From NCBI RefSeq assembly GCF_008039575.1, contig NZ_VDUY01000001.1:496001-560000 (forward strand): DNA of 64,000 bases, read 5' to 3'. The notes below the pieces were generated by a model. It worked only from the letters and a program-made list of their open reading frames with translations. It made no database searches and was not told the DNA's origin. How positions within the stretch are numbered: position 1 is the stretch's first letter; every line of letters starts with the position of its first letter. Positions 13,099 to 15,646 of this stretch are shown here, in pieces. The translations under genes and the position numbers were made by a program. The stretch comes from Zeimonas arvi. GTDB taxonomy: Bacteria > Pseudomonadota > Gammaproteobacteria > Burkholderiales > Burkholderiaceae_E.

Positions 13099-13193
13099 TC
13101 CACGCCCGATTCGACCGCAAGCAGCGGAGTGAAGCCGGTCACGAGAGCGAATAGATTCTGTCCGTCGACGCTTTACCTGCCGGAGGGACGGAA

Positions 13194-14273
13194 ATGAACA
13201 TGAGCACGAGAAAGGAACATCTCGCCGCGGCCACGGTGGCGGATCCCCGCTGGAGCGCCGTGGCGGCGCGCGACCCGGCTTGCGACGGCCGCTTCGTCTA
13301 TTCGGTGGCCAGCACCGGCGTGTACTGCCGGCCCTCGTGCGCCGCGCGCAGGCCCCGGCCCGAGAACGTCGCCTTCCACGCCGGGCCGGCCGAGGCCGAG
13401 CGGGCCGGCTTTCGCCCCTGCAGGCGCTGCCGGCCCGATCGGCCGTCGCTGGCCGAATCCCACGCCCGGATGGTCGCGGGCCTTTGCCGGACGATCGAAA
13501 GCGCGGAACAAGCGCCCACGCTCGATGCGCTGGCGCGCGAAGCCGGCATGAGTCCGCACCACCTGCAGCGGGTCTTCAAGGCGCTCGTCGGACTGTCGCC
13601 CCGCCAGTACGCGGCCGCGCATCGCGCGCAACGCTTGCGCGAGCGACTCGGCGGCGGCGGGCGCGTCACCGACGCGATCTACGACGCCGGCTTCGGATCG
13701 AGCGGCCGCTTCTACGAGAACGCGAACGAGGTGCTGGGCATGACCCCGACCGTCTGGCGCGCCGGCGGCGCGAACACCGAGATCCGCTTCGCGATCGGCC
13801 AGTGCTCGCTCGGCGCGATCCTGGTGGCGGCGAGCGAGCGCGGCGTCTGCGCGATCCTGATCGGCGACGATCCCGAGGCGCTCGCCCGCGACCTTCAGGA
13901 TCGCTTCCCGCGCGCCGCCCTGGTCGGCGGAGACGCCGACTTCGAGAAGACGGTCGCCACCGTCGTCGGCTTCGTCGAGGCGCCGCGACTGGGACTCGAG
14001 CTGCCGCTCGACGTGCGCGGCACCGCCTTCCAGCAGCGGGTCTGGCAGGCGCTGCGCGACATCCCGCCCGGCAGCACGGCCAGCTACACCGAGATCGCCG
14101 CGCGGATCGGCGCGCCGAAGTCGGTGCGCGCGGTCGCCGGCGCCTGCGCAGCGAACGCGATCGCGGTCGCGATCCCCTGTCATCGGGTCGTGCGCACCGA
14201 CGGCGGCCTGGCCGGCTACCGCTGGGGCGTGGCGCGCAAGCGTGCGCTGCTCGAGCGGGAGGCAGCGCAGTGA
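13194..14273 (+). CDS. ada: Bifunctional Ada: O6-methylguanine-DNA methyltransferase and transcriptional activator
   Basis: A 359-residue protein with the full Ada layout. The N-terminal zinc domain has C45, C49, C76 and C79 (TGVYCRPSC, FRPCRRCRPD). C45 is the phosphotriester methyl acceptor that turns Ada into an activator. An AraC-type helix-turn-helix follows (about 95-180, including MSPHHLQRVFKALVGLSP). The C-terminal methyltransferase domain carries the active-site PCHRV with C329. GGAGG precedes the ATG. The gene leads a three-gene unit with an Fe/2OG oxygenase (GTGA overlap) and alkB, so methyl damage should induce all three. Confidence 0.97.
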   Translation: MNMSTRKEHLAAATVADPRWSAVAARDPACDGRFVYSVASTGVYCRPSCAARRPRPENVAFHAGPAEAERAGFRPCRRCRPDRPSLAESHARMVAGLCRTIESAEQAPTLDALAREAGMSPHHLQRVFKALVGLSPRQYAAAHRAQRLRERLGGGGRVTDAIYDAGFGSSGRFYENANEVLGMTPTVWRAGGANTEIRFAIGQCSLGAILVAASERGVCAILIGDDPEALARDLQDRFPRAALVGGDADFEKTVATVVGFVEAPRLGLELPLDVRGTAFQQRVWQALRDIPPGSTASYTEIAARIGAPKSVRAVAGACAANAIAVAIPCHRVVRTDGGLAGYRWGVARKRALLEREAAQ

Positions 14274-14971
14274 GGACCCGGATCGAGAGGCGCGACTGGA
14301 CATCGATCGAGCAGGCGCTGGACGCTCGCGGCAATGCGGTCCTCGGCGGGCTGCTGTCGCCCGCCGAGTGCGCGGACCTGGCGGCGCTTTACCCGGCCGA
14401 CCATCGGTTCCGCAGCCGCGTGGCGATGGCGCGCCACGGTTTCGGTCGCGGCGAGTACAAGTACTTCGACTACCCGCTGCCGGCGCCGGTGGCGGAGCTT
14501 CGCGAAGCGATCTATCCGCGCCTGGCTCCGATCGCCAACCGCTGGAACGCAACGATGGGCGTCGCCGACCGCTATCCTGCCTTGCACGCCGCCTACCTCG
14601 AGCGCTGTCATGCGGCTGGCCAGCGGCGTCCGACGCCGCTGCTGCTGCAGTACGGCGTCGACGACTACAACTGCCTGCACCAGGATCTCTACGGCGAGCA
14701 GGCGTTCCCGCTGCAGGTCGCGGTGCTGCTGTCCGATCCGGGTCGAGACTTCGAGGGCGGCGAGTTCGTGCTGACCGAGCAGCGGCCGCGGATGCAGTCG
14801 CGCGCCGAGGTGTTGCCCTTGCGGCAGGGCGATGCCGCGATCTTCGCGGTCAGCCACCGGCCGGTGCAGGGCGCACGCGGCCCCTACCGCGTGATGCTGC
14901 GCCACGGCGTCAGCCGTGTGCGCGCGGGCAGGCGACACACGCTCGGCATCATCTTCCACGATGCCGCCTGA
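14270..14971 (+). CDS. 2OG-Fe(II) oxygenase of unknown substrate, coupled to ada
   Basis: A 233-residue dioxygenase of the prolyl-hydroxylase-like fold. Iron and 2-oxoglutarate ligands can be assigned: H137 and D139 in NCLHQDLYG, H212 in LRHGVS, and R222 in AGRRHTLGIIFHD. The segments ARHGFGRGEYKYFDYP and GGEFVLTEQRPRMQSR are strongly conserved in related proteins I recall from Burkholderia and neighbours, usually annotated only as 2OG-Fe(II) oxygenase. The GTG start overlaps the ada stop (GTGA at 14270-14273), which makes co-translation likely. The sequence is clearly different from AlkB next door. A role in DNA or RNA damage repair is inferred from position only. Confidence 0.87.
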   Translation: MRTRIERRDWTSIEQALDARGNAVLGGLLSPAECADLAALYPADHRFRSRVAMARHGFGRGEYKYFDYPLPAPVAELREAIYPRLAPIANRWNATMGVADRYPALHAAYLERCHAAGQRRPTPLLLQYGVDDYNCLHQDLYGEQAFPLQVAVLLSDPGRDFEGGEFVLTEQRPRMQSRAEVLPLRQGDAAIFAVSHRPVQGARGPYRVMLRHGVSRVRAGRRHTLGIIFHDAA

Positions 14972-14983
14972 CCCGGCTCGCCG

Positions 14984-15646
14984 ATGACCCCCGACCTCTT
15001 CGAGTCGGTCGCCCCGCCCCTGCCCGGCGAAGCGGCCGCGGAGCCGCTCGCCGAAGGCGCGGTCGTGCTGCGCGGCTTCGCGCTGCCCGCCGAGGCCGCG
15101 CTGCTGGACGGCCTGCAGCGGGTCGTGGCGCAGGCGCCGCTGCGCCGCATGGTCACGCCGGGCGGCTTCACCATGTCGGTCGCGATGACCAATTGCGGCG
15201 CGCTCGGCTGGGTGTCGGATCGCCGCGGCTATCGTTATGCGCCGCGGGACCCCGGCAGCGCCCTGCCCTGGCCCGCGATGCCGCAGGCCTTCGCGCGACT
15301 CGCAGTGGCGGCCGCCGCACGCGCCGGCTTTCCGGGCTTCGCGCCCGACGCCTGCCTGGTCAATCGCTACGAGCCGGGCGCGCGCCTGACGCTGCACCAG
15401 GACCGCAACGAGCGGGACTTCGGCGCGCCGATCGTGTCGGTGTCACTGGGCCTGCCGGCCGTCTTCCTGTTCGGCGGCCGCGAGCGCAGCGAGCGGCCCC
15501 GCCGGATTCCGCTGGCCCACGGCGACGTGGTGGTGTGGGGCGGTCCCGCCCGGCTCCGCCATCACGGCGTGATGCCGGTGAAGTCCGGCGATCACCCGCT
15601 GCTCGGCGGCTGCCGCGTCAACCTGACCTTCCGCCGGGCCGCCTGA
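14984..15646 (+). CDS. alkB: AlkB DNA repair dioxygenase
   Basis: A 220-residue Fe(II)/2-oxoglutarate dioxygenase that removes 1-methyladenine and 3-methylcytosine lesions from DNA and RNA. The ligands match E. coli AlkB: H138 and D140 (LHQDRNE), H194 (RHHGVMPV), R211 and R217 (CRVNLTFRRA). The nucleotide-recognition part TPGGFTMSVAMTNCG and the motif LVNRYEPGARLTLH are intact. It lies 12 bp after the preceding oxygenase gene and is the last gene of the ada unit. It faces the convergent DUF4197 gene across 18 bp, with no obvious terminator hairpin between them. Confidence 0.97.
   Translation: MTPDLFESVAPPLPGEAAAEPLAEGAVVLRGFALPAEAALLDGLQRVVAQAPLRRMVTPGGFTMSVAMTNCGALGWVSDRRGYRYAPRDPGSALPWPAMPQAFARLAVAAAARAGFPGFAPDACLVNRYEPGARLTLHQDRNERDFGAPIVSVSLGLPAVFLFGGRERSERPRRIPLAHGDVVVWGGPARLRHHGVMPVKSGDHPLLGGCRVNLTFRRAA

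Follow-up and report, generated by a model that had tools for sequence, protein, structure and literature searches.

An Fe(II)/2-oxoglutarate oxygenase of family PF09859 encoded between ada and alkB is a regular, though not universal, part of the methylation-response regulon

The adaptive response to methylation damage is usually told with four genes, ada, alkA, alkB and aidB. In a 64,000-nucleotide stretch of the Zeimonas arvi genome (contig NZ_VDUY01000001.1, positions 496,001 to 560,000; hereafter the window), a further gene, encoding a predicted Fe(II)/2-oxoglutarate (2OG) oxygenase, sits between ada and alkB. This raises the question as to whether the gene belongs to the methylation response and, if it does, what its product acts on. 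Based on the surroundings of relatives and on two kinds of upstream operator, we conclude that the oxygenase gene belongs regularly, though not universally, to the methylation-response regulon; the removal of methyl damage from nucleic acids by its product is the likeliest reaction, with protein hydroxylation as a serious rival.

Judged from its sequence, the oxygenase is a real, functional-looking member of a catalogued and biochemically uncharacterised family. It matches Pfam PF09859 (Oxygenase-NA) with 292.8 bits (cut-off 26.2) over profile positions 1-172 of 172, and we saw no difference from that family, all catalytic residues being present. An earlier note on this DNA, made from the letters alone, had called the oxygenase unassigned and its relatives annotated only as 2OG-Fe(II) oxygenases, which has to be corrected: the family is named in Pfam and carries a predicted role in DNA damage ("Oxygenase, catalysing oxidative methylation of damaged DNA"). 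The experimental basis for that description was not found in the open-licence literature searched. Searches of NCBIfam and PHROGs placed the oxygenase in no family at E up to 0.001, and sequence searches of the PDB matched no chain at E up to 10. Other parts of the note stand. The iron ligands H137, D139 and H212 and the probable 2OG arginine R222, which it described as intact, are invariant in 30/30 aligned proteins, the window protein being 62-73% identical to its 29 relatives. The AlphaFold2 model (predicted local distance difference test score 93, predicted template modelling score 0.91) shows a predicted double-stranded beta-helix of the prolyl 4-hydroxylase (P4H) and prolyl hydroxylase domain type, in line with its nearest Foldseek matches, and the arginine spacing differs from that of the AlkB encoded in the window; this agrees with the suggested fold, prolyl-hydroxylase-like and unlike AlkB. 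The open reading frame (ORF) coordinates likewise agree with the described arrangement, in which the GTG start lies within the sequence GTGA and overlaps the ada stop codon by 4 bp, and the alkB ATG (14984) follows the oxygenase stop after 12 nt. All three genes lie on one strand (Table 1), ada has a further ATG at 13200, and both the ada and the alkB products pass their NCBIfam equivalog cut-offs.

The company of the oxygenase gene in relatives was assessed in two samples. Among 398 Pseudomonadota genomes drawn evenly from the phylum, PF09859 occurs in 44, over the cut-off in 42, and partner domains were sought within 5 kb of the 44 PF09859 places in those 42 genomes. MGMT, Ada-Zn and AlkB domains are near 14, 12 and 16 of the 44 places, with approximately 0.25, 0.08 and 0.11 expected, and any of the three is near 27/44 (fewer than 1 expected), always on the same strand. 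The second sample comprises the best 80 of 590 confirmed matches in another collection; it leans to near relatives, and has flanks of up to 6 kb, with some stretches ending close to the gene (e.g. L077). Here Ada or AlkB is found in the flank of 57/80 loci, all on the same strand, and alkB is the commonest of the three partners looked for (47/80). Linked loci extend to Myxococcota (L042, L053, L072) and Acidobacteriota (L079, L081, L106), several of them metagenome-assembled. On a tree of 83 proteins, alkB linkage requires 12 changes and ada linkage 13; for a table of four linkage groups on the same tree, the starred branches force only at least one change for each, so that repeated gain does not follow from the tree. 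Genomes with PF09859 also have Ada-Zn more often than others (30/42 vs 143/356; Fisher p 1.3e-4, kinship ignored), and 39/42 contain AlkB, so that AlkB and the oxygenase are rarely substitutes. Linkage far above expectation, together with the operator enrichment described below, rules out that the oxygenase is a chance neighbour of ada and alkB.

Upstream of many ada/oxygenase operons we found an element consisting of an A-box, six bases and a B-box, the boxes described for Ada operators in PMC4437013. In the window this element, GATTCGACCGCAAGCAGCGGAGTG at 13108, reads GAT-N6-GCAA with the A-box one base off AAT, is followed by TAGATT at offset 44, and fits the consensus AATTngAncGCAAGAnnCGGAGTGC aligned from 39 sites in relatives. 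In the 3.83 Mb genome it is the one perfect site and the sole one within one mismatch of RATTNNANNGCAAGNNNNGGAG, for which the reversed-pattern control also gives 1. Using other 350-base segments of the same near-relative loci as controls, the pattern RATN6GCAA is present before 18/19 ada-oxygenase operons (control 14/1026) and 16/23 unlinked oxygenase genes (control 45/1190), and little above chance before oxygenase-alkB loci (4/38; control 69/2034). The pattern GCAAN4CGG is present at 19/19 ada-oxygenase operons (control 3%), 12/23 unlinked genes (5%) and 6/38 oxygenase-alkB loci (5%). With a three-base spacer, GCAAN3CGG is not enriched at ada-oxygenase operons (1/19; control 6%) and is present at 9/38 oxygenase-alkB loci (control 8%). 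With a slightly longer operator pattern, 31/37 instances have TANNNT at offset 44, and elsewhere between offsets 36 and 51 none has it. Of the 20 perfect operator sites listed for the 42 genomes, 17 have an oxygenase, MGMT, Ada-Zn or AlkB domain less than 1 kb downstream on the same strand; the other three precede an HhH-GPD glycosylase gene, an ORF without family and, by approximately 50 bases, a VanZ-like ORF scoring below its cut-off.

The 23 unlinked near-relative loci include many from Burkholderia and Paraburkholderia and are hence not independent, but with the operator at 16 of them the idea that unlinked copies are foreign to the methylation response is ruled out for near relatives. 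It may still hold for the evenly drawn set, where RATN6GCAA is present at only 3/17 unlinked places (background 1-4% of segments), and a second type of operator at 2 more. Ten proteins encoded next to the oxygenase gene at 7 of these 23 near-relative loci were scanned: one is a UvrA, eight belong to families without an obvious connection to repair and one has no family. The UvrA gene, a DNA-repair neighbour of an otherwise unlinked oxygenase, is in a Phenylobacterium metagenome assembly (L069), at +787 relative to the oxygenase match. It is on the same strand as the oxygenase, begins 86 bases behind it and is cut by the contig end.

The second operator is characteristic of the 38 oxygenase-alkB loci, which have no ada upstream (two have it further downstream) and belong largely to Bradyrhizobium and kin. 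The motif AAT?CGGGTGG is present at 31/38 of these vs 1/2034 control segments, at 3/23 unlinked loci and at 0/19 ada-oxygenase loci; in the form (GGA)AAT?CGGGTGG it is strongly conserved 82-233 bases before the oxygenase match (L033, L040, L048 and 28 other loci). The exact sequence GGAAATCGGGTGGY is listed at 27 sites in 16 genomes; allowing one mismatch, it gives 122 matches vs 22 for the reversed pattern. Seven of the 27 sites precede an oxygenase and another seven an MGMT domain, which in one case is that of an ada gene. Three MGMT genes behind GGAAATCGGGTGGY, from Bradyrhizobium-like genomes, were read and encode HTH_18 and DNA_binding_1 domains without Ada-Zn, the same architecture as that reported for the Caulobacter regulator Cada2. 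The regulator of the second operator may be a Cada2-like helix-turn-helix (HTH) methyltransferase, and GGAAATCGGGTGG a putative target of such a protein in Bradyrhizobium. The remaining 13 sites lie elsewhere; for 12 of them a simple codon-position score was used to choose the ORF behind the site, and the five ORFs scanned comprise one EamA, one polyketide-cyclase-like and one SnoaL-like protein and two without family. One genome, G287, combines both systems: its contig 1 (approximately 2396113-2666160) holds two copies of the oxygenase, each preceded by a different operator type, and both operators stand upstream of its ada (2660933 and 2661003).

A link to published data comes from Caulobacter, for which PMC10957082 reports that methylation damage induces ccna_00745 more than any other gene, that ccna_00745 is co-operonic with ccna_00746 (cada1), and that methylation-specific genes are recA-independent. 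A published cada1 primer matched 2/249 genomes of the family of G256. In both, the two cada1 primers map immediately ahead of an Ada-Zn/MGMT gene, and the next gene belongs to PF09859, its product being 65% identical to the window protein; at one such locus (L115) the two genes overlap by 4 bp. A GCAAN4CGG promoter stands ahead of these genes. From primers and gene order, ccna_00745 thus fits the PF09859 orthologue; its deletion is not reported in the available part of PMC10957082. Taken together, operon linkage, both operator types and the reported induction of ccna_00745, which the orthologue fits, are in line with the earlier proposal of an oxygenase inside a methyl-damage regulon, and the survey for relatives positioned away from ada and alkB, with 27/44 and 57/80 nearby, did not refute it.

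What, then, does the oxygenase do? Starting from the family, the intact active-site residues, the P4H-like predicted fold, the operon linkage and the operators, we lean, if by no great measure, towards a methylation-inducible ada-oxygenase-alkB operon whose oxygenase demethylates nucleic-acid lesions. The three genes would form a single transcription unit with the oxygenase as middle cistron, and methylated Ada would bind the operator at 13108 and turn on all of them. The oxygenase would hold Fe(II) via H137, D139 and H212 and 2OG via R222, and Fe(II), 2OG and O2 would generate a ferryl species for the hydroxylation of a C-H bond. The most likely target would be a nucleic-acid methyl group that stems from a methylating agent; this group would be released as formaldehyde, and the lesion would be one that AlkB handles poorly, giving the two enzymes complementary lesion ranges. 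Oxidative removal of methyl damage from nucleic acid is the likeliest reaction because of the genomic company of the gene. A broader proposal, which we regard as possible and hold only tentatively, is that PF09859 represents a second kind of oxidative dealkylase, built on a prolyl-hydroxylase rather than an AlkB fold. It would be dedicated to methyl damage that persists after AlkB, AlkA and Ada have acted, and in several phyla two different operator systems would keep it responsive to methylation. Ada is not known to accept one methylphosphotriester stereoisomer, and this isomer or methylated RNA, for instance, could be such leftover lesions.

Several observations weigh against nucleic-acid demethylation under methylation control. 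The closest solved folds in Foldseek are protein prolyl hydroxylases, one of them crystallised with EF-Tu, and neither an activity nor a mutant phenotype of any PF09859 protein was found in the open-licence literature searched. In the even sample 17/44 places are unlinked, with either operator at only 5 of those 17, and the Ada Zn domain is absent from 12/42 PF09859 genomes. At one mismatch the operator pattern gives 171 matches in the 42 genomes vs 73 when reversed, and is largely background. Neither linkage nor operator is present at 12/44 evenly drawn places; the ties to the regulon exist in many but not all relatives, and we therefore describe membership as regular and not universal. The fold bears most directly on the main rival, in which methylation stress induces an enzyme that hydroxylates proteins, at proline or another residue, its target being, for example, a translation factor, a ribosomal protein or a repair protein. 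The P4H-like predicted fold argues for this, but the substrate does not follow from a fold, the commonest partner is alkB (47/80 loci), and Pfam names the family for damaged DNA, so that we consider protein hydroxylation rather unlikely while taking it seriously.

Other alternatives appear less probable still. The Foldseek matches include small-molecule 2OG oxygenases such as WelO5, HalB and SnoN, and in Bradyrhizobium-like genomes the second operator also precedes EamA, SnoaL-like and polyketide-cyclase-like genes, which argues that this regulon is not solely devoted to DNA repair. Both points would suit an enzyme that detoxifies a methylating compound or a methylated pool nucleotide ahead of DNA damage; however, the linked partners are macromolecular repair genes, and we regard such a role as unlikely. 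A thioether demethylase oxidising S-methylcysteine in Ada or MGMT, by which a suicide protein would be recycled or a switch reset, could draw on the protein-hydroxylase-like fold and on the MGMT domain being present in 42/42 PF09859 genomes and within 5 kb at 14/44 places. MGMT domains are, however, near universal (14/14 control genomes), alkB is the commoner partner in the 80 loci and the idea is purely inferential, making it very improbable. Finally, PiuC is second in the Foldseek ranking (9qn0), which could indicate an iron-homeostasis oxygenase placed in repair operons merely by position. Given operators common to ada, ogt and a Cada2-like regulator gene, and the methylation-specific induction reported for Caulobacter in PMC10957082, we find this the hardest of the alternatives to credit.

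Table 1 Features of the ada-oxygenase-alkB locus in the window (positions are those of the window).
Feature	Position	Strand	Description
Pyrroline-2-carboxylate reductase family gene	ends 13098		upstream of ada; 9 bases before the operator
Ada-type operator	13108-13131	+	near A-box GAT, N6, B-box GCAA, N4, X-box CGG, then AGTG
-10-like TAGATT	13152-13157	+	44 nt from operator start
ada	13194-14273	+	Zn-binding, AraC-type HTH, O6-methylguanine methyltransferase; NCBIfam NF011964, Pfam Ada_Zn_binding, HTH_18, DNA_binding_1
PF09859 Fe(II)/2OG oxygenase	14270-14971	+	233 aa; H137, D139, H212 iron ligands; R222 probable 2OG arginine
alkB	14984-15646	+	NF011930 344.5 bits, PF13532 199.8 bits
DUF4197 gene	16438-15665		downstream of alkB, oriented towards the operon

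Some variants of the locus were seen among relatives. At L117 (G196:C63:31000-36000) PF09859 genes flank alkB on both sides, the second copy being divergent, with 43% identity to the window protein and a score of 182.6 bits. At L118 (G351:C1:1743800-1748000) an Ada zinc domain in a 97-aa open frame stands directly before the oxygenase, and a methyltransferase domain was not found within 5 kb. On plasmids, 89 records contain PF09859, 44 of them from Pseudosulfitobacter, and 77/89 are predicted to be non-mobilizable. Phage records gave no match, and two IMG/VR contigs (L111, L112) encode relatives near the contig edge.

These data add a further repair-type enzyme to the methylation response of a good share of those Pseudomonadota that have it, and of some Myxococcota and Acidobacteriota, often beside alkB. 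Should the oxygenase remove lesions beyond those of AlkB, the set of directly reversed lesions would be wider; should it modify a protein, the methylation response would have an additional branch. The operators and the surroundings of relatives tie the PF09859 oxygenase to this response, which makes its target testable. The family itself is already known; neither the operator evidence for PF09859 (unlinked copies included), nor the second operator, nor the PF09859-ccna_00745 tie was found in the open-licence literature searched.

How does the oxygenase compare with known systems? AlkB, encoded in the same operon, is likewise an Fe(II)/2OG oxygenase with an HxD...H motif, and its hallmarks are an arginine 17 residues after the distal histidine and an NLTFR end. 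The AlkB of the window has both, whereas in the oxygenase the arginine is at distal histidine +10 and the NLTFR end is missing. The AlkB profile PF13532 gives no match in the oxygenase at E up to 0.001, vs 199.8 bits for its alkB neighbour, and AlkB-type structures come further down the Foldseek list (OsALKBH1 at rank 31, AlkB 3bi3 at rank 33). The absent PF13532 match and the other arginine spacing rule out assigning the oxygenase to the AlkB family as a paralogue; a remote relation may exist, hhalign giving a probability of 14.5% and E 0.0019 with shallow profiles. The Pseudomonas putida prolyl-4-hydroxylase is 12% identical to the window protein, which scores 24.6 bits against PF13640, under the cut-off of 27; that enzyme is not known to be linked to Ada. 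On the regulatory side, the GCAA and CGG part of the window operator resembles the B-box and X-box bound by Cada2 in Caulobacter, with a spacer of 4 bases in the window, in relatives and in the Caulobacter-type promoter vs the 3 bp given in PMC10957082. Finally, Caulobacter has alkB at a separate place (CC0009; PMC1839093) and Cada2 as regulator, whereas in the window a full-length Ada and alkB flank the oxygenase.
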